From IMG/VR virus record IMGVR_UViG_3300030331_004397, positions 1-25,070 of that record: a stretch of DNA of 25,070 nt; one strand, 5' to 3'. A model generated the notes under the pieces. That model was given only the letters and a program-made list of their open reading frames with translations. It was not told the DNA's origin and did not search any database. This DNA is from a virus. This document shows, piece after piece, positions 3,263 through 25,070 of the stretch. A program made the translations under genes and the position numbers. The stretch's first letter is position 1, and each line of letters begins with the position of its first letter.

Positions 3263-3515
3263 AGCCTTTTGGTAAATTATTAGTTTTTATTTCTTTTCCC
3301 TCCAACTTATCTCTTTCTTCATCTATTCGTTTAAGTATTTCAAAAGCATCAAATATAGCAAGCTTTTTTGTTGCGGCAGCATTTTTAAGTCTATCTGCTG
3401 CTAACTCATCATCTGGGTCTGGCTTTATAATTTTTTCTTTTGCAACATCGATTAATTCTTTAACAGCTTTTTCTCCAGCTTGTATAATCTGTAATTTAAT
3501 TGCTTTCGTGTCCAT
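3240..3515 (-). CDS. Small helical protein before TerL, candidate small terminase subunit
   Basis: This 91-residue protein is charged and predicted to be mostly helical, with Glu/Lys-rich heptad-like stretches (residues 1-30 and 45-80) around a short segment, KPDPDDELAADRL. It lies immediately upstream of TerL and overlaps it by 23 nt, the usual place of the small terminase subunit that recognises packaging sites. No helix-turn-helix can be pointed to with certainty, so the function is inferred from position, size and helical character. The start at 3515 overlaps the upstream gene by 20 nt, in line with tight coupling across this cluster. It could equally be an unrelated small packaging or scaffold factor. 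Confidence 0.55.
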   Translation of the reverse strand: MDTKAIKLQIIQAGEKAVKELIDVAKEKIIKPDPDDELAADRLKNAAATKKLAIFDAFEILKRIDEERDKLEGKEIKTNNLPKGFAERKSK

Positions 3516-4074
3516 CTTTTAAAGTTATATTATTAGTATACATTCTGTATAGTTTTTCGTCGTCTATTTTAAATTCATACTCACTGTTAGGTTGAAATGA
3601 TATTTTATCACCAGGCAATATGTTTAAACGTTCTAATTGTTTATTGCCGTATTTTAATATGCCCCAAAGTGGTTCTTCATTTTCAGCTACATCTATGTAT
3701 TTTTTTTTGATAGGTATAGGTTTTACAAAACAATACTTGTCATGACTATACCACTTACCATTTTGTTTATACATATAAAATTGATAATCATCAACTAAAA
3801 ACAAATCATCTATAATCCAACTTCTACCACTTTTTTGTCTTCCATAAATATCGTTATAATATTTAAAAACATTATGGTGAACAACAAGAGTATCACCTTT
3901 TTTAATTTTTCCTTTGTAATTAATTGGAATATTTACTACAGTAGCAAAGCGTGTAGAAACAGTATGGTCTTCTTCAGATGTACTAATAAAAAACTTTTTT
4001 TCACCATAATATTTTATATTATCATAACGCCTATCGTTGTAGGGTTTTACAATAAAACAAAAAGGTGATTGCAT
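3496..4074 (-). CDS. GroES-fold-like protein with two half-similar regions
   Basis: This 192-residue protein does not have a classic annotation but contains two stretches resembling the C-terminal half of GroES. The second, at about residues 150-185, reads LPGDKISFQPNSEYEFKIDD followed by EKLYRMYTNNITL, close to the GroES pattern of VGD-VLF, then K-DGEEY, then the RE-DIL strand. The first, at about residues 50-75, has IPINYKGKIKKGDTLVVHHN. The protein could therefore be a tandem chaperonin-10 fold acting as a co-chaperonin or a structural protein that reuses the fold. It overlaps the preceding and following genes. A dedicated GroES is encoded elsewhere in this window, so this would be a second GroES-like protein. 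Fold-level inference only; sequence identity to GroES is low. Confidence 0.5.
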   Translation of the reverse strand: MQSPFCFIVKPYNDRRYDNIKYYGEKKFFISTSEEDHTVSTRFATVVNIPINYKGKIKKGDTLVVHHNVFKYYNDIYGRQKSGRSWIIDDLFLVDDYQFYMYKQNGKWYSHDKYCFVKPIPIKKKYIDVAENEEPLWGILKYGNKQLERLNILPGDKISFQPNSEYEFKIDDEKLYRMYTNNITLKDGHESN

Positions 4075-5111: not shown

Positions 5112-7319
5112 TTAACTTACTGTTATATCTACATTATTTGTAAGTCCTGCGGTTACATTCATTTGAATATATTCTATTCTAATATACCAATCCATTGTTG
5201 CATTGTTTATATTTCCATTAGTTCTAAATCTTAATGGCTTGTTGTCAAGCTTCCATCTAACATTAGGATTTTCATTTATAGTTGGTAATGGAACAGGTCT
5301 GCCCCAGAACCACGTATCAGATGCACTGCAAACACCACCCGCTATAACTGCTATATTTTTTCTTTCGCTAAGATTGCATGCTGGGTCTGATTCACAAAAA
5401 TAAAATGTTGCTCCAACATTAGTACCACTTGTCCATCCCGTTCCTGCACTACCTGGCCCTCTATATATAAAAAGTTGAGTAGGCCAAATTATATTATTAG
5501 TTCCTTGAGCAGGAATAAGTATTTTACCAGCGTTTGTAAATGAATCATTTAAAGCGGCTGCTGTTAATTTAATTGTAACTACTCGTTTTGCTTGAACCAC
5601 TTTTCCTCCATCGCCAAAAGCTGCAATAAATTTTGGTTGATTTTCAGAGCTTGTAATTCCAAAGTAATTTCCTTGAGAACCTGAACCTGACTCTCCATAA
5701 TTACCAAACTTAACAAACTGACCACCAGAACCACCGTTTACAAATAGATTTTGCTCAGACGTGTCTCCAACATTTAATTGGTTTCTAACTCTTATTGTAC
5801 CATTTACATCAAACGCAGCTCCTGGGTTTGAGGTTCTAAACCCTACTTTTCTGTTGTCTGTATCTATATAAAGTGTTTCTTGTCCTGAACCGTTACTACC
5901 TATTTTAACAAGACTTCCAGTATCAGTTATTTCAGAATTACCAATAGCTGAACTACTTGTCCATTTTGATAATGTGTTAGAAGTTCCTGTCCCTGTTACT
6001 GTTCCAGTACCTGCACCAATATCGTCTCTTACTTGTGCTACGGTTCTTGTTTTTATAGTAGTACCATCCACTGTTAAATAAGTGGAAGGTGAAGATGTCA
6101 TTGCACTTAATATACCGATGTGTATTCCAGAATCTGAAAATGCTACTACTTCTGAGCCGCCAGCAGATATATTTACTTGGTCAGAAGCTTCACTATATAT
6201 TCCAGTATTAGTGTCTCCAGCTCCAGTTCCGCTTCTCTTTCCGAAATTTAAACCTGGTTTAGTTTGTGTACCTGGTGAAATTTGTAAATTAGAAACATTT
6301 GCAGTACCAGAACCTTCAAACTCTGCAACAGTTACTCCACCATCATTTTGTATACTAAAAGGAAAACTTGCAGTGCTTTTTAGAAAAGTACCACTATTAG
6401 ATTCAAAAAATCTTCCATTTGTTAAAGAGCTTGAACCATTCCAGATTGCATTCCTCCCTGATGTTCCTGAGCCTGTAACTGTACCACCACTACTTGGTGA
6501 ACTATTTGTTATCGTAAAGTTTGGATATGTACCCGTTATTGTTATACCTGTGCCTGCTGTTAAAGCAACTGTTTGGTCGGGAGCTGAATTAGTTACCGTT
6601 ATACTTCCTGAACCTGTAATTGGTGAACCAGAAACTGATATACCTGTGCCAGGAGTAATTCCTACACTGGTAACTGTACCAGTATTTGTAGTTGCAGATG
6701 TATTTATAGTTACAGTGTTTCCAGAACGAACTGTAGTTATGTTAGTGCCACCAGCAATATCTACAGTTTCTGCATCATCAATCGTTGCTGTACCACCACT
6801 ATCGGCAGTAAGTTTCCAGGTTGACATTGTTCCTAATCCCGCTACTGCATTATCTATTGCTGTTTGTATTTGTGTTCCTGTTGCTAATTTTGATGAACCA
6901 CTGCTTACCGCAGCTGTATTAACACCAATCGTTGGGGTGGTTCCTCCTGACGAAGTTATTGGTGCTGTTGCACCTACACTGGTAACAGTACCTTGTGGAA
7001 CACCTGCAACTTGAGTATCTACATAATTTTTACTTGCGGCATCAGTGCCTGCTGTTACTGTATCTATACCTTGTATACGTCCTGTACCACTTAGTGTTAT
7101 ATCACCACCAGTAACTGTTAAATCACTTGCTATAGTTGCATTACCAGCTTCATTAACTCTAAATAAAAAACTATTACCTCCGTTTAGTACTTCAAACTTA
7201 GAACCGCTCGTGTCATTATTTGCATCAACCTTTATTATTACATCTGCATCAGATTGTATTTGACCAGTTAATTTTATGTTTTCATCAGTCGTTGTATCGG
7301 CTAAAAATCGTATTGCCAT
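5112..7319 (-). CDS. Repetitive tail fibre protein (735 aa)
   Basis: The product is rich in Thr, Ser, Gly and Val, and begins MAIRFL like the next fibre upstream. Residues about 20-110 contain DASKNY-type fibre sequence (AASKNYVDTQVAG), followed by repeated GTVTSVG and TNTGTVTSVG segments typical of elongated beta-structured fibre shafts. One copy of the MSTWKLTADSGG module, which is repeated in the neighbouring 812-residue fibre, is also present. The last 170 residues lose the repeat pattern and contain Trp, Cys and Arg, so they probably form a globular tip. There is no recognisable S74 intramolecular chaperone domain. A role in host recognition is inferred from composition and from family behaviour. 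Confidence 0.8.
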   Translation of the reverse strand: MAIRFLADTTTDENIKLTGQIQSDADVIIKVDANNDTSGSKFEVLNGGNSFLFRVNEAGNATIASDLTVTGGDITLSGTGRIQGIDTVTAGTDAASKNYVDTQVAGVPQGTVTSVGATAPITSSGGTTPTIGVNTAAVSSGSSKLATGTQIQTAIDNAVAGLGTMSTWKLTADSGGTATIDDAETVDIAGGTNITTVRSGNTVTINTSATTNTGTVTSVGITPGTGISVSGSPITGSGSITVTNSAPDQTVALTAGTGITITGTYPNFTITNSSPSSGGTVTGSGTSGRNAIWNGSSSLTNGRFFESNSGTFLKSTASFPFSIQNDGGVTVAEFEGSGTANVSNLQISPGTQTKPGLNFGKRSGTGAGDTNTGIYSEASDQVNISAGGSEVVAFSDSGIHIGILSAMTSSPSTYLTVDGTTIKTRTVAQVRDDIGAGTGTVTGTGTSNTLSKWTSSSAIGNSEITDTGSLVKIGSNGSGQETLYIDTDNRKVGFRTSNPGAAFDVNGTIRVRNQLNVGDTSEQNLFVNGGSGGQFVKFGNYGESGSGSQGNYFGITSSENQPKFIAAFGDGGKVVQAKRVVTIKLTAAALNDSFTNAGKILIPAQGTNNIIWPTQLFIYRGPGSAGTGWTSGTNVGATFYFCESDPACNLSERKNIAVIAGGVCSASDTWFWGRPVPLPTINENPNVRWKLDNKPLRFRTNGNINNATMDWYIRIEYIQMNVTAGLTNNVDITVS

Positions 7320-7330
7320 ATTAAATTAAA

Positions 7331-9769
7331 TTATGACACCTTTGTAATCAATATTCTTATTGCATCTGCAGCAGGAGCTGTAGTAAAGTCTACTGTTACC
7401 TGTCCAACTTGGTTTCTTGTTACATCTGCATAAACGGTGTCGAAAGTTGTATTATCATAAAGCTGAACCATTACATCTCTTGTACCCAGTCCATGGTTTA
7501 CTGTTATAGAAGTAGCCCCACCAATATCATCTGAATATTGCTCATTTGCCGCTATACAGGTGCTTACTGCAGTACAGAAATCACTTACCTGTGATGCTGT
7601 AATGTTAATCGCTTGGTCACTTAACGAAGTTAATAAACCTTTTGCAGTTACGGTAGCAGAAAGCGACCTATTTGCACTACCATAAGAACCCGCTGATACA
7701 CCAGTATTATCTAATGTAACAAATCCATTTGCAGTTACACCGAAGTTACCACTGTCAAATCCTGCTACACCTTTTTTGGTTACTGCATCTGATGCTCCTT
7801 CACCTGCTATGTTTTCGTCTTGAATAACTACTGTATATTTTGTTACAGCTGGGTTTGAGTTTGCTGCAATATCATCATTAGCATAAATCATATCGCCTGG
7901 CTCCAGAGTTTCTGAGAAGAATGCAGTACCTGCAACCGTTACAGCGAAGAAGTCACCTTTATCTAAAGCTATATTAGCTGCTCCATCTAAAGAACCATTC
8001 GTTGAAAGGTCTACAGTTTGACCTGTAGTCGCATTATATCCTCCTTGGAATAAACCTACTCCAGCCGCTATTGATTGAACTTGTGCTAAATTAACACCGT
8101 CTGTTGCATTAAATCCTGTTGCTACATCTAATAGTTTATTTCCTCCAAAGTCTACATCTGCTTCTGCATCACCCCATTGGTCTAAATGTATATCATCTGG
8201 AGTAATTTTAGCATTACCACTTGCGTTACTATCAAAAAATACTAATGAATCGTTATCACCATCTATTGTAGAATTTGTAGTAATTTCATTTAAATCAAGC
8301 TTTACAGTTACCGTTCTTCCTGATTCGGAAGTATCAATACCTGCGTTTACTCCTGTGCCTGAACCAGCTATTGTGACTGTTTGGCCATTAGAAACTGCAC
8401 TTGAACCAGAGTCACCTGCTATAGTCCATGATGACATTGAACCAGTACCTCCAGTATATGCTATTGTTACTTGTCCACTACCATTGTTTGTAGTAGATAT
8501 ATTTGAGCCAGCTGCTATAGTTATAGTGTCTTGGTCTGTAATTGTTGAATTACTACCAGTTGAAGCGGCTAATGTTATACTGTTAAATGGTAAAGAGTTT
8601 GTAATTGTTAAATCATCAGTTGCTGATGCAGCTGTAGTAATACCAGTGCCTCCAATAAATGTAGCTGTATCACCATCTGTAACAGTTTGAGTACCACTAT
8701 CACCTGCAAGTGTCCAAGAGCTCATTGTTCCTGCACCACCGTTAGATGCTGCAGTAATTCTACCTTGAGCATCTACAGTAATATCTGCAGATGTATATGA
8801 GCCTGCAGTTACTGCAGTGTTATCTAAAGATAATGTTACTGTTCTTGTTCCACCTACACTACCAGAAATACCTGTACCTCCTACTATATCGACAGTTTGT
8901 CCATTCGTTACACTTTGGTCGGTACCTGTTGTAGAACCAATCTTCCAGCTTGACATCGAACCAGAAGAACCGCTACTTGCGGCTGTAATTCTACCTTGCT
9001 GGTCTACTGTTATACTTGCTAATGTGTATGAACCTGGAGTTACTGCGGTGTCATCTAAGTTAATTTTTAAGGTGTCAGTGTTACTTGAGACAGTAGAAAT
9101 AGCTGTACCTCCTCCCAATGTAACATTATTACCTGAAGCAACAGTTTGTGTAGCACCTGTATCTCCCTCAAAACTCCATGAATAATTTTCTGCTGCTGGG
9201 AAAGTAATTGTTTGTAGGTCTATCGCAGTAACGTGACCTTCAGAAGAAGTTGAAACTGTGTTTACTACATCTACTGTTCCACCATAACCAGGTGAAGCTG
9301 AACTTGTAGTATCATTTCTTGAAACGGCAGCATGATTAATAGTTAAAGTATCTGTTGCACTGGCTACTGTATTAATTACATCGCCTCCAGCAAACGTAGC
9401 TGTATTACCAGAATCTATAGCTTGTGCAGAACCTGAGTCACCAGCAAGTTCCCATCCCGAATAACCACTTGCAGTTGCTGTAATTGTTACTCCACCAGAG
9501 CCATTACCAACCGTAGTTATACCAGAACCTGCAATTAGTGTTACAGTATCTCCATTGGAAATAGTTGAACTACTACCTGATGAGCCAGCTAAAGTAAAAC
9601 TACTCATTGTTCCAGCTCCTATATCACTTCTTATTTCACTTTTGGACCTTCTTTCAATTAATCCTGATGTAGAGACCAATATACCATCATAGGTGTTTGT
9701 GCCCCTTGCGTTTATTGTTGCGGTAACCGTACCGTCTATATTAAGTGCGTTTAAAAATCTTATTGCCAT
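7331..9769 (-). CDS. Repetitive tail fibre protein (812 aa)
   Basis: This fibre starts MAIRFL and carries about six copies of a 60-90-residue module headed by sequences like MSSWTLAGDSG and followed by DGDTATFIGGTGITTAASA-type strands, which suggests expansion by duplication. The middle (about residues 530-700) changes to a different fibre sequence. The C-terminal 60 residues (ITVNHGLGTRDVMVQLYD onward) match in pattern the end of the adjacent 246-residue protein, which has YIVTHSLNKFPAVSVTLVD. This shared domain is probably a tip or trimerisation unit. The gene sits 11 nt upstream of the other fibre. Receptor binding is the likely role; no enzymatic motif is seen. Confidence 0.8.
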   Translation of the reverse strand: MAIRFLNALNIDGTVTATINARGTNTYDGILVSTSGLIERRSKSEIRSDIGAGTMSSFTLAGSSGSSSTISNGDTVTLIAGSGITTVGNGSGGVTITATASGYSGWELAGDSGSAQAIDSGNTATFAGGDVINTVASATDTLTINHAAVSRNDTTSSASPGYGGTVDVVNTVSTSSEGHVTAIDLQTITFPAAENYSWSFEGDTGATQTVASGNNVTLGGGTAISTVSSNTDTLKINLDDTAVTPGSYTLASITVDQQGRITAASSGSSGSMSSWKIGSTTGTDQSVTNGQTVDIVGGTGISGSVGGTRTVTLSLDNTAVTAGSYTSADITVDAQGRITAASNGGAGTMSSWTLAGDSGTQTVTDGDTATFIGGTGITTAASATDDLTITNSLPFNSITLAASTGSNSTITDQDTITIAAGSNISTTNNGSGQVTIAYTGGTGSMSSWTIAGDSGSSAVSNGQTVTIAGSGTGVNAGIDTSESGRTVTVKLDLNEITTNSTIDGDNDSLVFFDSNASGNAKITPDDIHLDQWGDAEADVDFGGNKLLDVATGFNATDGVNLAQVQSIAAGVGLFQGGYNATTGQTVDLSTNGSLDGAANIALDKGDFFAVTVAGTAFFSETLEPGDMIYANDDIAANSNPAVTKYTVVIQDENIAGEGASDAVTKKGVAGFDSGNFGVTANGFVTLDNTGVSAGSYGSANRSLSATVTAKGLLTSLSDQAINITASQVSDFCTAVSTCIAANEQYSDDIGGATSITVNHGLGTRDVMVQLYDNTTFDTVYADVTRNQVGQVTVDFTTAPAADAIRILITKVS

Positions 9770-17586: not shown

Positions 17587-18036
17587 ATGCCTATTATAGT
17601 ACGAAACACTTCTCGTAAACATCCCGAACATGATTATTTAAAATATTGGAAAGTAATTAAGTATTGGGCTAAAAGAAAATATAATATAACAACAGGTGAC
17701 TTAGAGCTTATGTTGTTTTTATATAGTGAACATTTATTTACAAAAACTAAATTTGAAGAATACAATGAGTTGATGTCTTGGAACACAAATAGGTTCTATG
17801 AACTTATAAAGAAAGGTTGGATTCACAAATGGAGAGCAAAAAAAGGAAATCAAGCTGCTTTGTATGAACTTACATTTACAGCAAAAAGAATGATAAGAAA
17901 TGTTTATGCTAAATTAAATGGAGATGATATTCCAGAAAACGCCACAAACAATCCTGTGTTTAAACACGATGTCAAGTATAGAGATAAGGTATATAGAAAT
18001 TACATGAAAAAAATAAACCGAGAAAATAGATTATAG
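17587..18036 (+). CDS. Winged-helix-like protein, candidate transcription regulator
   Basis: The 149-residue protein is basic and predicted to be helical with a short beta wing. Residues 35-105 fit a MarR-like winged helix: helix GDLELMLFLYSEHLF, a recognition-type helix in ELMSWNTNRFYELIKKGWIH, then a wing KWRAKKGNQAALYELTFT and a following helix TAKRMIRNVYAKLNG. It is the only plus-strand gene in the left 20 kb, read from a promoter that overlaps that of the late operon. Autoregulation and control of late genes are therefore likely inferences. The end converges on GroES, with stop codons overlapping in TTATAG. It contains one GTTTAAAC site at 17958-17965. Confidence 0.6.
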   Translation: MPIIVRNTSRKHPEHDYLKYWKVIKYWAKRKYNITTGDLELMLFLYSEHLFTKTKFEEYNELMSWNTNRFYELIKKGWIHKWRAKKGNQAALYELTFTAKRMIRNVYAKLNGDDIPENATNNPVFKHDVKYRDKVYRNYMKKINRENRL

Positions 18037-18403: not shown

Positions 18404-18650
18404 AATAATGGTTTTTAGTTTCTATTAATTTAAATCTTTTTCCCTTCTCTATCCTTCGACTATCCTTAAAATAATTATTCAAGTCGATTGTATTTTTTTT
18501 AAATAGTTTATCTAAGAATACTTTTTGTTTGTATTCAGTTATAAAACTAATTGTTGAATCTTCTGAAATTGGTTTTAATGGATAACCTTTAATACCTTTC
18601 ATTGGCTTCATGCCAAAAAATTTTCTTATATCATTCTTTAACTCTGGCAT
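18390..18650 (-). CDS. Hypothetical protein in chaperonin operon
   Basis: The 86-residue product, starting MPELKNDIRKFFGMKPMKGI, is basic with no known domain that I can recognise. It contains KPMKGIKGYPLKPISEDST followed by a helical stretch. Its start overlaps the GroEL stop by 20 nt and its stop overlaps the small gene downstream, so it belongs to the GroEL-GroES transcript. A role in chaperonin function or substrate delivery would be a guess. Confidence 0.62.
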   Translation of the reverse strand: MPELKNDIRKFFGMKPMKGIKGYPLKPISEDSTISFITEYKQKVFLDKLFKKNTIDLNNYFKDSRRIEKGKRFKLIETKNHYYGNI

Positions 18651-20229
18651 GTGTTACTATTGCATTAGTTGATAATATTGTTGCCGCCACACTACTTGAA
18701 TTTATTAAAGCATTCTTTGTAACCTTCAAAGGGTCAATAACACCGAGCTTATATAAATCTCCAAACTTTTCATTTTTTACATCAAACCCATAGTTCTTTT
18801 TCTTATCATTTATTTCTGATAAAATATTTTCAGGATTGATGCCTGCATTTTCTAATATTTGTATTAGTGGTTGAACGATTGCTTCTCTTACTATATTACA
18901 TGCTGTATTATAGTCAGCATCTTTACCATTACTTACTATAGTTTTAGAAGCATTATACAAAGCAAGTCCAGCACCAGCTACGATACCCTCTTCTAATGCA
19001 GAACGTACTGCACATACCGAGTCATCGACTCGGTCAAATTTTTCTTTTTGTTCTACATCAGAGTTACCACCAACGTAGATACACCCGATAGCTCCAGCTA
19101 AGCTGGCTATTCTTTCATCTATAAACTTTCTTTCTTGTGGTGTTTCAGTATTTTGTTTCTGTATTCGTAGTTCAGCTATTCTCAATAATAATTCTTCACT
19201 TGGTTCAGTATTAGTAATGAGAACAGAATTAGATTTACCTACAATTATTTTATCAGCACTTCCTAAGTCAGCTTCTGATAATGTAGATAAATCATCTCCA
19301 GTTTTTTCTGACAGATACTTTGCGCCTAATGTCAAAGCTATGTCTTGCATCAGCTCATGTTTTTTATAACCAAAGGAAGGAGTCGGTATATTACATAGCT
19401 TCAAACCATTTCTTACGACATTGGCTGCAAGTGTATTTACCACATTCGTTCCGCAGTCAGCGATTATAAGCAAGGTCTCGCTTTTTTGAATAATAGGTTT
19501 TAGTACACTTTCTATTTGAAGTATGTTATTAATGTCTTGGTCACAGACAAGCACCCTAACATTTTCTAATATACACTCGTCCTTCTTTTGATTATTTATA
19601 AATAGGTTAGATGAATATCCTCTGTCTACTTTGATACCGTTAGTTACTTCAGCAAATGTCTCATGGTTTTGAGAACGCTCCACGGTAACTATTCCATCAT
19701 TACCAACTTTCTGATATGCGTCAAATATTAACTTACCTATCTCTGCATCATTGTTGGCTGATATCTTAGCAACATCTAATAGACTACTCTTTGTAATCTT
19801 CTTTGAATTTTTTTCTAAATATTTTACAACATCTTTTACAATGTTATTAATATGTCTAACCACTTGTGTGGTATTATTATTTGGTATCATATACTTAAGA
19901 CCCGCCTTGACAAAGGCTTCAGCCAATACGATTGCTGTTGTTGTTCCATCACCAGCTGAGTTAGCTGTACGATTGGAAGCGTCTTTCATTATTTGTATTG
20001 CTATATTTTCTACAGGGTCATCTAAAAAAATACTACGAGCTACGGTTACTCCATCTTTAGTAATGGTCATTCCGCTAAGATGCTCGGTGCTTTCTATTAT
20101 AACTGTTTGCCCGCGTGGGCCTAATGTAGATTTAACTGCGTTGGAAATCTTTTCTATTCCTGATATTAATTTTTGTCTTCCTTCAGAATCAAAATGAAGA
20201 TTCTTTGGAATGTAACCTTGCTTACTCAT
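18631..20229 (-). CDS. groEL: Phage-encoded chaperonin GroEL
   Basis: The 532-residue protein is a group I chaperonin, forming rings that fold client proteins with ATP. Equatorial ATP-site motifs are in place: TLGPRG at residues 35-40, TKDGVTVA at 57-64, AGDGTTTA at 92-99, and near the end VDDSVCAVRSALEEGIVAGA with the conserved Asp. The apical segment is divergent, and the usual Gly-Gly-Met tail is absent; the protein ends NAIVTHARVKE. The length is close to the usual 540-550. The N-terminus MSKQGYIPKNLHF also differs from host proteins. A Bacteroidota-type promoter with both elements precedes it. Phage GroELs are known, and this one probably folds virion proteins such as capsid or fibres. 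Confidence 0.93.
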   Translation of the reverse strand: MSKQGYIPKNLHFDSEGRQKLISGIEKISNAVKSTLGPRGQTVIIESTEHLSGMTITKDGVTVARSIFLDDPVENIAIQIMKDASNRTANSAGDGTTTAIVLAEAFVKAGLKYMIPNNNTTQVVRHINNIVKDVVKYLEKNSKKITKSSLLDVAKISANNDAEIGKLIFDAYQKVGNDGIVTVERSQNHETFAEVTNGIKVDRGYSSNLFINNQKKDECILENVRVLVCDQDINNILQIESVLKPIIQKSETLLIIADCGTNVVNTLAANVVRNGLKLCNIPTPSFGYKKHELMQDIALTLGAKYLSEKTGDDLSTLSEADLGSADKIIVGKSNSVLITNTEPSEELLLRIAELRIQKQNTETPQERKFIDERIASLAGAIGCIYVGGNSDVEQKEKFDRVDDSVCAVRSALEEGIVAGAGLALYNASKTIVSNGKDADYNTACNIVREAIVQPLIQILENAGINPENILSEINDKKKNYGFDVKNEKFGDLYKLGVIDPLKVTKNALINSSSVAATILSTNAIVTHARVKE

Positions 20230-20743: not shown

Positions 20744-20886
20744 ATAAATTTTTATTAGATATCTGGAGGTTGAGGGTAATACCCCATTATACGATTGCCA
20801 CCCCCCTAACAGAAAGTCAAAATAAAATGCACGTCAAAACAAATTTTAAAAATTTTTTGCCAGATTTTTTAGCTTTTTTGCAGGGC

Positions 20887-20978
20887 GTTTAAACGGGGTC
20901 AAGGTCGAGCGCGAAAGCGGGCGCGCTGTTTAAACATGGTGAGGGTCTGAGCGTTTAAACGGGGTGAGGGTTGGGGGA
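20887..20978 (+). repeat. Iteron-like direct repeats with GTTTAAAC
   Basis: Three direct repeats start at 20887, 20928 and 20953. Each opens with GTTTAAAC and continues with a form of GGGGTGAGGGTCTGAGC: GGGGTCAAGGTCGAGC, ATGGTGAGGGTCTGAGC and GGGGTGAGGGTTGGGG. Spacing is 41 and 25 bp. A hairpin AGCGCG-N8-CGCGCT (20908-20927) lies between the first two. This looks like iterons of a replication origin. Confidence 0.55.
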
Positions 20979-21021
20979 AGGTTTGACGTTTTTTGTTTGA
21001 AGACACAAAAAGAATTCCCCC
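20973..21021. repeat. Nested 7+7 bp inverted repeat
   Basis: GGGGGAA at 20973-20979 pairs with TTCCCCC at 21015-21021, and inside it TTTTTGT at 20990-20996 pairs with ACAAAAA at 21005-21011, leaving an 8-nt apical loop. The two stems are separated by an asymmetric internal loop. It could form a cruciform or a hairpin in RNA. Confidence 0.55.
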
Positions 21022-21169
21022 GTTATCCCCGCCCGATATTTCAAAAGACAAAACAAAACATAAAAAAAAAGATAAAGTTATCAACAGGTTAAGGCTCTGA
21101 CTATCAGCAAGTTACAAGCATTTGACATGGTGCAAGAAAATATATTTCAAAAAATAACTAAATAAATGT

Positions 21170-21199
21170 TTTGAATAGTCGATAATTATACTATCTTTG
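21170..21199 (+). promoter_or_regulatory. Promoter of the rightward (early) operon
   Basis: TTTG at 21170-21173, an 18-nt spacer and TATCTTTG at 21192-21199 match the Bacteroidota promoter. The start codon is 29 nt downstream. It is the only full promoter found for the rightward genes, so it probably reads the whole set. Confidence 0.72.
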
Positions 21200-21207
21200 C
21201 TAATATT

Positions 21208-21228
21208 ATTAACAAAATTTATACAATT
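21208..21228 (+). repeat. Common leader, first copy of four
   Basis: The sequence ATTAACAAAATTTATACAAT just before the start at 21229 recurs, with few changes, before the genes at 21910 (21888-21909), 22095 (22075-22094) and 22998 (22977-22997). The consensus is TTTAACTAAATTTATACAAT directly followed by ATG. It contains no Shine-Dalgarno sequence, as is usual in Bacteroidota, and may be the ribosome-entry signal for this operon. Confidence 0.7.
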
Positions 21229-21858
21229 ATGAGACATAAAAAGTCAAAATCTAACAGAGAAACCTACTTAGAAAATGCTACGGATATACTAAGAAAGGGT
21301 CTGTTTAAACAGAAGGGATATAAGGTCCCGAAAGTTCAATTATCTGTATCATGGGCCACAAGTGGCAACAGGTCCAGACACGGCGAAGGCGTTAAGGTAT
21401 TGGGCCAATGCTTTCCAACGGGTCTTTGTGATAGCGGAATTAATCAAGTAAATATTACACCTTATTTAGACGGGTCAACGTTGAAGGGTACGCTTAGAAT
21501 TTTAGGCGTTCTGGTTCATGAATTAGTTCACGCCGTTGATGATTGCGTAAGCGGTCACGGGACGCCGTTTAAACGTTGCGCGGAAGCGGTAGGGTTGACG
21601 GGTAAAATGACAGCTACAACGGAAACAGAATGGTTGGAAGATTATCTAAAAGAAAACGTTATAAAGCCGTTAGGTTTATTTCCTCATGCTAAAGTAGTAT
21701 CGGGCAAGCGTAAAGACAGCGTAAGGAATTTAAAAGTAAGTTGTAATTGTTGCGGGTTCAGTTTTAGAACGTCCAGAATGAACATTAATAAACTTGAGGA
21801 CCACATTGATTGCCCAACGGGTTGCGGTGGACAAATGGACAACGAACAAGATTACTAA
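21229..21858 (+). CDS. SprT-like zinc metalloprotein
   Basis: The 209-residue protein has the SprT-type motif HELVHAVDD (residues 97-105) with a probable third ligand His110 in SGHGTPF, preceded by a beta region and an amphipathic helix. The C-terminal 40 residues form a zinc ribbon: CNCCGFSF at about 172-179 and CPTGCGG at about 195-201. SprT and Spartan proteins act on DNA-protein crosslinks or as predicted metallopeptidases, and SprT-like genes are frequent in phages. It is the first gene of the rightward operon, with the common leader. It contains GTTTAAAC twice in coding (21303, 21567). Confidence in family is high; substrate is unknown. Confidence 0.88.
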   Translation: MRHKKSKSNRETYLENATDILRKGLFKQKGYKVPKVQLSVSWATSGNRSRHGEGVKVLGQCFPTGLCDSGINQVNITPYLDGSTLKGTLRILGVLVHELVHAVDDCVSGHGTPFKRCAEAVGLTGKMTATTETEWLEDYLKENVIKPLGLFPHAKVVSGKRKDSVRNLKVSCNCCGFSFRTSRMNINKLEDHIDCPTGCGGQMDNEQDY

Positions 21859-21865
21859 TTAACAC

Positions 21866-21889
21866 GGGGCGTTTAAACGCGCCCCTTTT
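21866..21889 (+). terminator. Hairpin after the SprT-like gene, P3-like or terminator
   Basis: GGGGCG (21866-21871) pairs with CGCCCC (21880-21885) around a TTTAAACG loop and is followed by TTTTATT. It looks like an intrinsic terminator but also like the P3 hairpin of the ribozymes downstream, followed by the same leader. No P1 or pseudoknot strand lies upstream of it. It could be an attenuator, or a ribozyme reduced to its last stem. Confidence 0.55.
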
Positions 21890-21909
21890 ATTAACTAAAT
21901 TTATACAAT

Positions 21910-22038
21910 ATGATATTAAAAATCTCAAAGCCAAACAGACAAACGAAGGCACGTAAGCGCGCCAAATCAACGCGCAAAGAATGGCGTCAATTCGTTAGAG
22001 GTTTGGGGACGTTAGGGCGTCTGGAAATAGTACATTAA
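21910..22038 (+). CDS. Short basic protein whose 3' end overlaps a ribozyme
   Basis: The 42-residue product, MILKISKPNRQTKARKRAKS at the start and GTLGRLEIVH at the end, is strongly basic and may bind nucleic acid. It starts at the common leader (TTTATACAAT then ATG) and is too short for most gene finders. Its last 10 codons are also the P1 stem, pseudoknot loop and most of the linker of the first ribozyme, so the gene is under double constraint. No homologous domain is recognised. The leader makes the start convincing. Confidence 0.65.
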   Translation: MILKISKPNRQTKARKRAKSTRKEWRQFVRGLGTLGRLEIVH

Positions 22039-22075
22039 GCCCTAAGCGTTGGGTCGTTTAAACGGCCCAGGTTGT
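22008..22075 (+). ncRNA. Pistol-type self-cleaving ribozyme, copy 1
   Basis: P1 is GACG/CGTC (22008-22011 with 22018-22021) with loop TTAGGG (22012-22017). An 18-nt linker, TGGAAATAGTACATTAAG (22022-22039), precedes CCCTAA (22040-22045), which pairs with the loop. Then come GCG (22046-22048) and P3, TGGGTCG/CGGCCCA around TTTAAA (22050-22069), then GG and the predicted cleavage between 22071 and 22072 (G|T). The linker has AAG before CCC and GCG after, the places of the catalytic A32, G33 and G40 of the known Env25 pistol ribozyme. Sequence and spacing match Env25 closely (GTTAGGGC, TTAAGCCCTAAGCGTTG, CAGG|T). Confidence 0.85.
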
Positions 22076-22094
22076 TTAACTAAATTTATACAAT

Positions 22095-22658
22095 ATGATA
22101 TTTAAAAACTTTGAAATTAAAAACAAAAGCCGAAGCAGGCGCAACGGATTTAGCCATGATTCGACGTTATTTTTTAATGACGTGAAGATAGGCAAGGCGT
22201 CTGTTCATTGGTACAATAGAACATGGGAAACTTATAGATTCCAGACCTCAATGCGAAGGGTTGTACAAGAAATGATTGATTACAACAAGAACCAAGTTCG
22301 AAAAGTTGTGTTCCGTGACTGGAAGCGTTTAAACGATACCAGAAAAGAAGAGTTACATAATTACTTTAAACGTTGTGATTTTGGCGGATACTTTGGTCAA
22401 GACCTTCTGGACCTGCTGGAAGTAATTAAGACCAGTAACGGCGAGCCAGACCCCTTATTAAATTCAATGAAAGCTTTTATGTTAATGGGCGATTTAATGG
22501 GCGACAAGCAAAGCATAGCAGACGCGGTCAAGTACAAAGAAAGGATAGTTTTTGCGACGATGAAAAACGCGATTCCAGATTGGCAACAGCCAGATAATTG
22601 GGAGCGTTTAAACGACACGGAAAAATTAGAAGTATTAAATAAAATTCAAGAACAATGA
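22095..22658 (+). CDS. Conserved phage protein of 187 residues, internal RLNDT repeat
   Basis: The N-terminal half has SRSRRNGFSHDSTLFFNDVK and VHWYNRTWETYRFQTSMRRV (about residues 12-57), a conserved phage pattern I recall, rich in aromatic and basic residues. The C-terminal half is helical. Two segments match each other: DWKRLNDTRKEELHN at about 75-89 and NWERLNDTEKLEVLN at about 168-182, and both are encoded with GTTTAAAC (22327, 22606). No enzyme motif is present. The gene is read from the new 5' end that the first ribozyme would create. It overlaps the following gene by 4 nt (ATGA). Confidence 0.72.
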   Translation: MIFKNFEIKNKSRSRRNGFSHDSTLFFNDVKIGKASVHWYNRTWETYRFQTSMRRVVQEMIDYNKNQVRKVVFRDWKRLNDTRKEELHNYFKRCDFGGYFGQDLLDLLEVIKTSNGEPDPLLNSMKAFMLMGDLMGDKQSIADAVKYKERIVFATMKNAIPDWQQPDNWERLNDTEKLEVLNKIQEQ

Positions 22659-22909
22659 GAAGTATAATAGTAGATAAAATATTAGATAAAAAAAGAAATT
22701 CTAAAGCAGAAGCTGAAGGGATTTCAGAATTCAAAGATAAAATTAAAATCGGGAAAACTATTCATTTTAACTGGTGGTCATTTTACGGGAGCGGGTCTAA
22801 CGTCAAGCGTAAAATTGTAGACGTAACGCATGAAGGTAAACCATGCGTAAGGTTCCAAGGTTACGGGTCATGGGTGATAGAGTTTCACGAAATTGAAGAT
22901 ATCTATTAA
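22655..22909 (+). CDS. Hypothetical 84-residue protein
   Basis: The protein starts MRSIIVDKILDKKRNSKAEA and contains HFNWWSFYGSGSNVKRKIVD and PCVRFQGYGSWVIEFHEIED, a beta-barrel-like Trp/Gly-rich part following a helical, charged N-terminus. No domain is recognised. It is coupled to the previous gene by ATGA. Its stop codon at 22907-22909 is followed with no spacer by the P1 stem of the second ribozyme. Confidence 0.68.
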   Translation: MRSIIVDKILDKKRNSKAEAEGISEFKDKIKIGKTIHFNWWSFYGSGSNVKRKIVDVTHEGKPCVRFQGYGSWVIEFHEIEDIY

Positions 22910-22977
22910 GTCGTTTGGGCGACGTAAAAAAGAACATTAGGCCCAAAGCGGGACAGCGTTTAAACGTTGTCCGTTGT
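22910..22977 (+). ncRNA. Pistol-type self-cleaving ribozyme, copy 2
   Basis: P1 is GTCG/CGAC (22910-22913, 22920-22923) with loop TTTGGG. The 18-nt linker is A-rich (22924-22941), followed by CCCAAA (22942-22947) pairing with the loop, GCG (22948-22950), and P3, GGACAGCG/CGTTGTCC around TTTAAA (22951-22972). Cleavage is predicted between G22973 and T22974. Compared with copy 1, P1 and the pseudoknot have compensating changes. The base matching catalytic A32 is G here, a possible effect on rate. The RNA starts right after a stop codon. Confidence 0.82.
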
Positions 22978-22997
22978 TTAACAAAAATTTATACTAT

Positions 22998-23525
22998 ATG
23001 AAAAACACGATTGAAAAACCACAAATGAAAACCACACCAAAGGGCAAAAGCTATTGGGGTGAAGGTGGAGCGTACGGCAAGGAGTACAGCGAATATAACG
23101 AAAAGCTGGTACCTTCAAGCGGTGACGCGCCAACGATTCACGGCGAGCTTATAAGGTGCGTTGGACGTCTTGCTTATGATTTCTATAACAATGGAAATTG
23201 TAACGTTCAAACTTACGATAGTTGGGATTGTGACGATTACGGCAACCCTACAGACGATACAGAAATATATATTCAACCTTATTATCAAAGAATGATTGAT
23301 TTCATTTATCAATATTCAGACGCGCGAAAGGAGTTAAGAAGATTAGAAAATTTCTTGACCGATTTTATACACTATAGCGAACGTTGGGTATATGAGGAAA
23401 AGACACCGCTTTATAATGACCTTATTGATAAGGTAATGTATCAAGTGATTACTGAAGGGAAAGACGGGGACAAACCAAATCCAGAGTTTGGAATGGAAAC
23501 GCAATACTACAAGGACAACGTTTAA
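22998..23525 (+). CDS. Hypothetical acidic/aromatic protein of 175 residues
   Basis: The ATG at 22998 follows the common leader (AACAAAAATTTATACTAT), so it is preferred over 22974, which would start inside the predicted cleavage site. The product begins MKNTIEKPQMKTTPKGKSYW and has many Tyr, Asp, Gly and Asn residues (YGKEYSEYNEKLVPSSGDAP; FYNNGNCNVQTYDSWDCDDY), with a helical stretch RKELRRLENFLTDFI. I recall this pattern in marine phage proteins, without function. The stop codon lies inside a GTTTAAAC site at 23520. Confidence 0.72.
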   Translation: MKNTIEKPQMKTTPKGKSYWGEGGAYGKEYSEYNEKLVPSSGDAPTIHGELIRCVGRLAYDFYNNGNCNVQTYDSWDCDDYGNPTDDTEIYIQPYYQRMIDFIYQYSDARKELRRLENFLTDFIHYSERWVYEEKTPLYNDLIDKVMYQVITEGKDGDKPNPEFGMETQYYKDNV

Positions 23526-23551
23526 ACGAAGTTTAATTTAATACTATATAT
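23519..23551 (+). repeat. Second-type junction repeat, copy 1
   Basis: CGTTTAAACGAAGTTTAATT at 23519-23538 spans the stop codon of the previous gene (GTT TAA) and leads into the start at 23552. It contains a small hairpin TTAAAC-GAA-GTTTAA. The same sequence occurs at 24223-24242. There is no ribozyme core here. Confidence 0.6.
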
Positions 23552-23761
23552 ATGAAAAAAATACAAGCAATAATTTTAGCAGTTTCGTGGGTAGGTTTAC
23601 TTACGTCTGCGGGTAGAGTTTTAATTCACATGACCGAGAGCGTCAAGACATTTGAGCAAGGCCTCACAATGTTCGCCTTCATCATGTTGATTGGAGTACT
23701 TATGTACGGAAGTTACGTGTTAATTTACCAGCTATTGAAGGAGTCGTTTGGGCGACAATAA
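23552..23761 (+). CDS. Small membrane protein with two hydrophobic segments
   Basis: The 69-residue product has hydrophobic segments at about residues 3-22 (KIQAIILAVSWVGLLTSAGR) and 38-60 (LTMFAFIMLIGVLMYGSYVL), with a short polar loop between. It may be an early inner-membrane protein, for example in host takeover or superinfection exclusion; nothing specific is seen. Its last codons (ESFGRQ then stop) encode the P1 stem and pseudoknot loop of the third ribozyme, so the C-terminus is constrained by RNA structure. Confidence 0.7.
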   Translation: MKKIQAIILAVSWVGLLTSAGRVLIHMTESVKTFEQGLTMFAFIMLIGVLMYGSYVLIYQLLKESFGRQ

Positions 23762-23812
23762 AGAGAACGATAAGCCCAAAGCGTTGCGCCGTTTAAACGC
23801 GGTGCAGGAGTT
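23743..23812 (+). ncRNA. Pistol-type self-cleaving ribozyme, copy 3
   Basis: P1 is GTCG/CGAC (23743-23746, 23753-23756) with loop TTTGGG. The linker of 18 nt (23757-23774) ends AAG, followed by CCCAAA (23775-23780), GCG (23781-23783), and P3, TGCGCCG/CGGTGCA (23785-23791 with 23800-23806), closed over TTTAAAC. After P3 comes GG, then A at 23809 where U is usual, so the cleavage site would be G|A and activity is less certain. All other conserved positions match copy 1. Confidence 0.75.
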
Positions 23813-23833
23813 ATTAATTTAAATAAAATTTAT

Positions 23834-24229
23834 ATGAAAGTAAAAGACCTAAAAAAAATTCTTGCTGAGTTGGAGCAAGAGCATGGAAATATAGACGATT
23901 GCGACGTCAATTATAGACGTTGCGATGATTCTGAAGTGTTCAGAATAAATCATCTTGAGGAAGATTTATTTGACGCTGAGACCAACAACGTTTTAGATAG
24001 TGTTGTCTTCACAAGCAACACCGCCAGCTTGATATGGAGTCAAGATTATGTTTTGTACGATAGGGCAAACGATAGTTTGGTGAAGTTTAGTAGTGGAGAT
24101 ATAGTACTCTATGGAGATAAAAAAGAAGCAGAGGAAGATTGTTACGGGAACGAGGAAGTATTACATTTCGAACAATTACCAGAAACTAAACAAAAAGAAA
24201 TTATCCACCAATTAGGGGGTAGCGTTTAA
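23834..24229 (+). CDS. Hypothetical acidic protein of 131 residues
   Basis: The protein begins MKVKDLKKILAELEQEHGNI and has two regions: an N-terminal part of about 60 residues with many Asp and Glu, and a C-terminal part with QDYVLYDRANDSLVKFSSGD and IVLYGDKKEAEEDCYGNEEV. The second part resembles a short recurrent phage module of unknown function (a beta hairpin followed by GDKEEAE and a helix). The start lies 25 nt after the predicted third cleavage point. The stop lies in a GTTTAAAC site (GTT TAA at 24224-24229). Confidence 0.7.
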   Translation: MKVKDLKKILAELEQEHGNIDDCDVNYRRCDDSEVFRINHLEEDLFDAETNNVLDSVVFTSNTASLIWSQDYVLYDRANDSLVKFSSGDIVLYGDKKEAEEDCYGNEEVLHFEQLPETKQKEIIHQLGGSV

Positions 24230-24256
24230 ACGAAGTTTAATTTAAAATTTATAATT
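24223..24256 (+). repeat. Second-type junction repeat, copy 2
   Basis: CGTTTAAACGAAGTTTAATT at 24223-24242 is identical to the copy at 23519 and again overlaps the stop of the previous gene, followed by AT-rich leader into the ATG at 24257. The match includes the stop codon position and the TTAAAC-GAA-GTTTAA hairpin. Confidence 0.6.
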
Positions 24257-24469
24257 ATGGCAGATATTCAAAAACCATTAACAACAGAAGAAAGATTCGA
24301 GCAAGTATCTTATTGGTATAATCAAGTTGATAGTTGTTCGCTCAGCAGTGTAGTAGACGCTTTATTTGAAGAGATTAACGAACAGATGAAAGAAGCTGAA
24401 GTTCCTGAAGAATATTATCAAGAGGTCTTCAGTTTAGTGAATGAAGATTATACTATAAGGCGTAGCTAA
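24257..24469 (+). CDS. Small acidic protein
   Basis: The 70-residue product, starting MADIQKPLTTEERFEQVSYW, is acidic (Glu-rich) and helical, with YNQVDSCSLSSVVDALFEEI in the middle. I know no domain for it. It ends in TAATG, where the last A of the stop is the first base of the next ATG, so the genes are translationally coupled. Confidence 0.68.
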   Translation: MADIQKPLTTEERFEQVSYWYNQVDSCSLSSVVDALFEEINEQMKEAEVPEEYYQEVFSLVNEDYTIRRS

Positions 24470-24600
24470 TGCACAGAATTGAAAGACAAATAATGCACGC
24501 GGTTTATAAGGCAAGAGAGCAAAGGCGTTTAAACAGGCTCATTGCAGAAAAAAAGTCGCGTGCGTTTAAACAAGGTGAACAAATAAAAATAATATTTTAA
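24469..24600 (+). CDS. Short basic protein carrying two GTTTAAAC sites
   Basis: The 43-residue product, MHRIERQIMHAVYKAREQRR at the start, is basic and helical and ends FKQGEQIKIIF. It is coupled to the previous gene by TAATG. It contains GTTTAAAC in two different frames (24527 as CGT TTA AAC, 24564 as GCG TTT AAA C), so the DNA motif, not one peptide, is what is kept. No function is known. Confidence 0.62.
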   Translation: MHRIERQIMHAVYKAREQRRLNRLIAEKKSRAFKQGEQIKIIF

Positions 24601-24610
24601 TGTACAAAGC

Positions 24611-24640
24611 TTGCACAATTAAAAAACATTTTGTATATTG
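24611..24640 (+). promoter_or_regulatory. Weak candidate promoter
   Basis: TTG at 24611-24613, a 20-nt spacer and TATATTGC from 24634 resemble the Bacteroidota promoter, with one mismatch in the -7 box. It lies 26 nt before the preferred start at 24666. Confidence 0.35.
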
Positions 24641-24665
24641 CACCCGAATCTTAAAATTAAAAATT

Positions 24666-24944
24666 ATGTATAGTGAAACTAAAACAAAATTATTGCAGAC
24701 GAGCCCAACGTTCAGTATATCAGACGTGTTCTTTAATTACGGAGCGACAAGCTTTAGTCGATTTAATTTTTTAGAAAATGGTAAAGTCAAAACCATGAGT
24801 GCGGACCAGCGTAAACGTTGGCGAACCGATGACCAAATATTTGAAGGCGTATATGAAGACGCTGAAAAGTTCATCGAGTTCTGGGCACTTGAAGATGTTA
24901 CAAATCCAATGGAGTTAGCACAAGACTTCATGGATAGATTGTAG
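24666..24944 (+). CDS. Hypothetical protein of 92 residues
   Basis: The frame is open from 24600, but the ATG at 24666 is preferred: it follows an AT-rich leader (TTAAAATTAAAAATT) and a candidate promoter, and the extra N-terminus would look artificial. The product starts MYSETKTKLLQTSPTFSISD and continues with VFFNYGATSFSRFNFLENGK, then an acidic, helical C-terminus with FIEFWALEDVTNPMELAQDF. It is not recognised. A GTTTAAAC site follows the stop within 6 nt. Confidence 0.62.
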   Translation: MYSETKTKLLQTSPTFSISDVFFNYGATSFSRFNFLENGKVKTMSADQRKRWRTDDQIFEGVYEDAEKFIEFWALEDVTNPMELAQDFMDRL

Positions 24945-25070
24945 AAGACGTTTAAACGGGCTGGTTTTGTGTATAAATTTTGTCAGTCCGTTGGTGGGTA
25001 AAAGACCTCACGAGATTAGTAGAGATTTATCTCGAACGATAGTGAGTAGGCTTTATAGGGGGTTCGAGTC
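24945..25070 (+). other. Non-coding end, possible structured RNA with T-arm-like sequence
   Basis: About 125 bases hold no gene. They contain GTTTAAAC (24950), a stem GGGCTG/CAGTCC (24958-24963 with 24984-24989), CTCAC/GTGAG (25007-25011 with 25042-25046) and CGAGAT/ATCTCG (25011-25016 with 25029-25034). The last bases, GGGGGTTCGAGTC, look like the T-arm of a tRNA. I could not fit a full cloverleaf, so the end may be a split or partial tRNA or another RNA cut by the window edge. Confidence 0.3.

Follow-up and report, generated by a model that had tools for sequence, protein, structure and literature searches.

The role of small self-cleaving ribozymes in bacteria and phages has been a long-standing question since their discovery there. 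Elements that lie at gene junctions and accompany gene shuffling are familiar from T4-type phages, in which PeSL elements, each made of an early promoter and a plain stem-loop, occupy repeated junctions of the hyperplastic early region. Pistol ribozymes near phage genes are already known (PMC4604425). Their cleavage products carry a 2',3'-cyclic phosphate and a 5'-OH, and the cut is held by the P3/P2 junction, usually G-U, which is fixed in length and variable in its letters (PMC4604425). The catalytic residues of the Env25 pistol are purine 32, G33, G40, C41 and G42 (PMC6154101). Perreault et al. (2011; PMC3088659) described clustered prophage hammerheads that flank single genes or short blocks, proposed that they process transcripts into operon- or gene-length mRNAs, and reported that they cut long native RNAs in vitro, one tandem set being active in E. 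coli as well.

The window, that is, the whole stretch of 25,070 nt analysed here, is a viral contig coding for a terminase (phrog_6681), an endolysin, a holin, a GroES-like protein and GroEL. Its terminase is 72% identical to that of MW202828, a complete 60.9-kb podovirus, and 46% identical to those of Flavobacterium elemo phages, with further matches in Cellulophaga, Tenacibaculum and Maribacter phages; from these matches the host is probably a flavobacterium. In three closer relatives, G014 (62.5 kb), G044 (62.8 kb) and G020 (34.9 kb), the pistols have the same loop as those of the window and the terminases are 93-95% identical to the window's; together with the window they are referred to as the four sister phages. 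Long DNA blocks shared by the window with G014 and G044 are mostly 80-92% identical. No pistol was found in the closest TerL relatives that a scan returned (50 records), an absence that is meaningful only for the long records, many of the others being fragments without the early operon. Since near-complete relatives with a TerL 72-78% identical have none, the tandem array described below is a trait of a small lineage. Elsewhere in the window, the phage GroEL (PF00118) and the GroES-like protein (phrog_13932) lie at 18631-20229 and 3496-4074, and two large repetitive structural proteins at 5112-9769 have segments that match the sisters in scrambled order.

Three pistol ribozymes, all full-length matches to RF02679 on the + strand, were found in the window by cmscan against Rfam, with scores of 52-58 bits against a gathering score of 34.5 bits. 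Relaxing the search to E <= 2 revealed neither a fourth ribozyme nor any other RNA in the window. The initial annotation, made from the letters alone, had named the three elements as pistols and proposed a run of the pistol covariance model over the window; the three matches above the gathering score bear this identification out, and the positions it gave (22008-22075, 22910-22977 and 23743-23812) are the Rfam ends trimmed by one base on each side. The features of the region are the following:

21866-21885, + strand: terminator-like hairpin between the SprT-like gene and the 42-codon frame, with GTTTAAAC in its loop and TTTT behind it
21910-22038, + strand: small basic 42-codon frame upstream of Rz1, kept in all four sister phages
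22007-22076, + strand: Rz1, pistol ribozyme (RF02679, 54.7 bits, E 1.3e-7)
22008-22011/22018-22021, + strand: P1 of Rz1
22012-22017/22040-22045, + strand: pseudoknot of Rz1
22046-22048, + strand: GCG of Rz1
22049-22070, + strand: P3 hairpin of Rz1; predicted cut G22071^U22072
22056-22063: GTTTAAAC in the P3 loop of Rz1
22095-22909, + strand: cassette A, between Rz1 and Rz2, with frames of 187 aa (22095-22658) and 84 aa (22655-22909)
22909-22978, + strand: Rz2, pistol ribozyme (RF02679, 58.4 bits, E 1.9e-8)
22951-22972, + strand: P3 hairpin of Rz2; predicted cut G22973^U22974
22958-22965: GTTTAAAC in the P3 loop of Rz2
22998-23761, + strand: cassette B, between Rz2 and Rz3, with frames of 175 aa (22998-23525) and 69 aa (23552-23761)
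23520-23542 and 24224-24246: ribozyme-free junction repeat CGTTTAAACGAAGTTTAATTTAA
23742-23813, + strand: Rz3, pistol ribozyme (RF02679, 52.1 bits, E 5.1e-7)
23784-23807, + strand: P3 hairpin of Rz3; predicted cut G23808^A23809
23791-23798: GTTTAAAC in the P3 loop of Rz3
23834-24229, + strand: 131-aa frame directly 3' of Rz3

In each of the three copies, P1 (GACG/CGTC or GTCG/CGAC) forms 4/4 pairs and the pseudoknot (TTAGGG/CCCTAA or TTTGGG/CCCAAA) forms 6/6. The P1 loop holds the 6-nt pseudoknot strand and the partner strand sits before GCG; the 18-nt linker, GCG and a P3 hairpin folding with 9 bp are common to all, which confirms the order of parts read at first sight (P1, pseudoknot strand, 18-nt linker, GCG, P3). 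As had also been remarked, the P3 stems differ in sequence and still pair, yet every loop is filled by the same palindrome, GTTTAAAC. The P2 stem has 4 bp in Rz2 and 3 bp in Rz1 and Rz3, where the outermost position is a non-standard pair. The predicted cuts lie 23 (Rz1), 24 (Rz2) and 25 nt (Rz3) before an ATG, the downstream start codons being at 22095, 22998 and 23834.

That P1 and the pseudoknot covary, as proposed from the three copies, holds for a much larger set. In a set of 45 distinct pistols, all taken from tandem arrays, P1 forms 180/180 pairs (shuffled mean 148, maximum 159) and the pseudoknot 262/270 (shuffled mean 192, maximum 213). Within the sister phages, P1 of Rz1 changes from GACG/CGTC to GTCG/CGAC (A-T to T-A), one G-C pair in its P3 becomes A-T, and the pseudoknot of Rz3 changes from TTTGGG/CCCAAA to TTTGAG/CTCAAA, pairing being kept each time. 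The equivalents of purine 32, G33 and G40-C41-G42 are present in Rz1, Rz2 and Rz3: (A/G)G precedes the pseudoknot strand and GCG follows it in all three. The P3/P2 junction is two nucleotides long in each, and reads G-U in Rz1 and Rz2 and G-A in Rz3. A G-A cleavage step occurs in 4 of 44 pistols, all of them Rz3 of the sister phages, window included; because G-A replaces G-U at the cut in all sisters, cleavage of Rz3 could be slow. This step, together with the terminator-like scores of P3 in Rz1 and Rz2, would suit an explanation in which the elements are stable 3' hairpins or weak terminators that protect mRNA ends, self-cleavage being weak or absent, above all in Rz3. We consider it very unlikely: P3 has no T-run behind it, and the catalytic core, P1 and the pseudoknot, superfluous for a terminator, are kept in all copies.

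The sister phages offer a clean natural comparison. Three pistols are present in each of G014 and G044 and two in G020; in every case they belong to the operon that follows the SprT-like gene. Ribozyme identity in the four phages is 89-99% at the same position and 60-79% across positions, the exception being Rz1 of G020, the most diverged, at 73-79% within its position; by position, Rz1, Rz2 and Rz3 are orthologous. The genes between them are exchanged. In slot 1, the window and G020 have the 187-aa and 84-aa genes, G014 has a homologue of the 175-aa gene that occupies slot 2 of the window, and G044 has a 125-aa gene together with a homologue of the 69-aa gene found in slot 2 of the window. 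Slot 2, behind Rz2, is occupied in the window by the 175-aa and 69-aa genes; G014 has a homologue of the 187-aa gene there and G044 only the C-terminal part of it, and G020 lacks both Rz2 and the second cassette (B). No homologue of the 131-aa frame is present in the sisters' slots. Mis-assembly as the source of the permuted cassettes was set aside, as the four contigs are separate and the repeats of about 70 bp only 60-79% alike. Because the ribozymes hold their positions and the genes between them are reordered, substituted or lost, they are the fixed borders of exchangeable gene cassettes, whatever their activity.

Such swapping among ribozyme-bounded slots could also mean that the elements persist chiefly as joints for cassette exchange at the DNA level, where they would serve as 70-bp repeats with a common core, RNA cutting being secondary. 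The same operon does contain junction repeats that are not ribozymes: CGTTTAAACGAAGTTTAATTTAA recurs without change over 23 bp at two gene borders, and the sisters have near-identical copies. Rz1-Rz3 at 60-79% identity offer poor homology for exchange, however, the double changes keep pairing, for which DNA homology has no need, and the arrays of other phages consist of dissimilar ribozymes. We judge this alternative unlikely.

Exactly one two-gene cassette separates each adjacent pair of ribozymes, all on one strand. The initial description of the pistols as lying between genes has to be refined, since the upstream frames stop within the ribozymes. The last 32 nt of the 42-codon frame are inside Rz1, with an identical overlap in 4/4 phages; the stop codon of the 84-aa frame reaches 1 nt into Rz2, and that of the 69-aa frame 20 nt into Rz3. 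Synonymous and non-synonymous changes in the part of the 42-codon frame that precedes Rz1 number 11/6 against G020 and 5/2 against G014, and the compensating P1 changes read in it as one synonymous (CGT to CGA) and one conservative (Thr to Ser) replacement. A ribosome that has reached the stop codon within Rz1 or Rz3 would sit on P1 or on the pseudoknot strand, and translation should therefore compete with folding at these two sites. Searches of Pfam and PHROGs gave no function for the cassette genes; a scan returned no relatives of the 187-aa protein, whose named matches are weak and confined to Flavobacterium elemo phages. The leader 3' of the hairpin at 21866-21885 is a 34-nt near-copy of the leader 3' of Rz1.

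The palindrome forms a second pattern. The window has 22 copies of GTTTAAAC where about 1 would be expected; the palindrome is about 20-fold over-represented in these genomes and reaches 46 copies in G014, 42 in G044 and 29 in G020, with 0 to 3 in other relatives. Twelve of the window's 22 copies read CGTTTAAACG, within 4 kb (20887-24950). All 11 pistols of the four sister phages have it in the P3 loop, and so does the terminator-like hairpin in its own loop. At gene ends the stop codon comes from the palindrome (GTT TAA), and within genes it is read in two frames, as RLN or as FK. Because it spans loops, hairpin, gene ends and two coding frames, GTTTAAAC is selected as nucleic acid, and is probably a regulator site that overlies the junctions and is distinct from ribozyme function. 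MW202828 has no GTTTAAAC but carries another palindrome, GTGTCGTTAACGACAC, in 14 copies (43749-55158) that mostly stand directly in front of early genes, and each lineage may have its own junction palindrome. At 20880-20980, between the leftward GroEL and rightward SprT operons, three GTTTAAAC sites form a cluster with spacings of 41 and 25 bp; the cluster is kept in G014 and G044 and looks like a divergent operator. A conserved 149-aa protein, encoded beside the GroES/GroEL genes (17587-18036, + strand), is a candidate for binding the palindrome; MW202828 has, at a similar location, a gene with a repressor annotation.

This abundance, up to 42-46 copies in the larger sister genomes, the spread of GTTTAAAC over loops, hairpin, gene ends and coding frames, and the presence of GTGTCGTTAACGACAC at like junctions of a relative might suggest that a DNA operator of a phage regulator is the selected border feature, the ribozymes being mere carriers in their tolerant P3 loops. 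We give this hardly any credence: it accounts for the loop alone and leaves the conserved ribozyme core unexplained. As GTTTAAAC also occurs far from ribozymes, palindrome and ribozyme are probably separate layers.

The observed sequences, structures, covariation, positions, conserved slots and gene exchange are consistent with ribozymes that would be active, would cut in infected cells, would give the resulting mRNAs separate fates and would be coupled to ribosomes. We put at roughly three in four the probability that the pistols cut a polycistronic early mRNA co-transcriptionally into cassette-sized mRNAs, at the borders of exchangeable cassettes. Each pistol would fold as RNA polymerase passes and then cut itself at the P3/P2 junction. 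The 3' end of the upstream mRNA would consist of the compact body of the ribozyme and carry a 2',3'-cyclic phosphate; the mRNA downstream would begin with a 5'-hydroxyl and an AU-rich leader of 23-25 nt before the start codon. The long message would thereby be split into cassette-sized mRNAs with independent decay and translation, and genes could then be exchanged between borders without upsetting their neighbours. A ribosome translating the upstream frame into the ribozyme should delay folding and cutting until it departs. Cutting of an early polycistronic transcript, as the initial annotation proposed, is thus the favoured reading, in which co-transcription itself has to be inferred: promoter-like matches in the region are no more frequent than chance would give, and Rz1 is preceded by a terminator-like hairpin. 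Against co-transcriptional cutting stands the fact that the operon works without pistols in more distant near-complete relatives, as those with 72-78% TerL identity have none. More tentatively, and with some doubt, the tandem ribozymes can be read as insulators that would define slots for cassettes in any order, because cutting would free each cassette from the transcript context of its neighbours; the overlap with upstream frames would tie cutting to the end of translation. The comparison suggests that the ribozymes allow the virus to exchange the genes carried on a single long message.

Tandem pistols are also present in other phages. The exact pistol pattern matched 65 stretches in 63 viral records, 62 of which are above the Rfam cut-off. 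Two to five pistols each are found in 18/63 of these pistol-bearing records, which is not a frequency among phages, because the records were picked by the pistol pattern and include near-duplicates (G001/G008; G034/G038/G063; the sisters). For 40 tandem pistols in 15 sets, reading frames cover a mean of 8% of the ribozyme, against 68% for random stretches; 37 of the 40 are covered to 35% or less, as are 28% of random stretches, and neighbouring pistols mostly enclose one or two genes. One record (G010) has five pistols in a row, with four successive single genes each between two of them; another with five pistols is G043. The ribozymes within the arrays of other phages are dissimilar to one another. 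Cultured phages surfacing with one pistol each are Gundel_1, Troll, MaeS, DS1, GMA2 and GMA7; in Tenacibaculum phage Gundel_1 the pistol (2564-2642 of locus L274) stands between gp5 and gp6, 5 nt from the former and about 20 nt from the latter. The same pattern matched five contigs among bacterial genomes, and in one Lachnospiraceae genome two pistols lie about 0.5 kb from each other. A pattern that required GTTTAAAC in the pistol loop gave pistols only in two sister loci (L017 and L049), the 25 other stretches being in pistol-free records. Given how often uncultured phages prove to have tandem pistols, operons cut by ribozymes may be a general form of organisation for phage early genes.

Like PeSL elements, the ribozymes of the window are junction elements that accompany gene shuffling; they differ in being self-cleaving and in that no promoter was detected. 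Theta ribozymes of gut phages resemble the pistols described here in being small, self-cleaving and active on phage transcripts, but have an HDV-like fold, take part in tRNA-based recoding and do not lie between coding cassettes (PMC10879173). The hammerhead clusters of prophages share with the window several self-cleaving ribozymes around phage genes and the same idea of transcript processing; they belong to another ribozyme class, and the available text of that report holds no comparison of sister phages in which ribozymes stay fixed and genes are exchanged (PMC3088659). Since that text describes hammerheads flanking single prophage genes in 2011, tandem ribozymes at phage gene borders as such are already known, and the initial view that such a series had not been described stands for pistols in the literature examined and fails for ribozymes at large. 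With the pistol class (RF02679; Weinberg 2015; Harris 2015, PMC4604425), Rz1-Rz3 share fold, core and a location near phage genes. They depart from it in numbering three per operon at successive cassette borders, in their GTTTAAAC P3 loops, in the G-A cleavage step of Rz3 and in the overlap with coding frames, whereas the cultured phages Tenacibaculum Gundel_1, Bacillus Troll and Gordonia GMA2 and GMA7 have a single pistol each. As far as the literature examined shows, the frequent occurrence of tandem pistols at successive borders (Weinberg 2015 may mention tandem pistols) and the conserved overlap of ribozyme and coding sequence are new, as is the strongest new result, ribozymes that remain fixed while the cassettes between them are exchanged.
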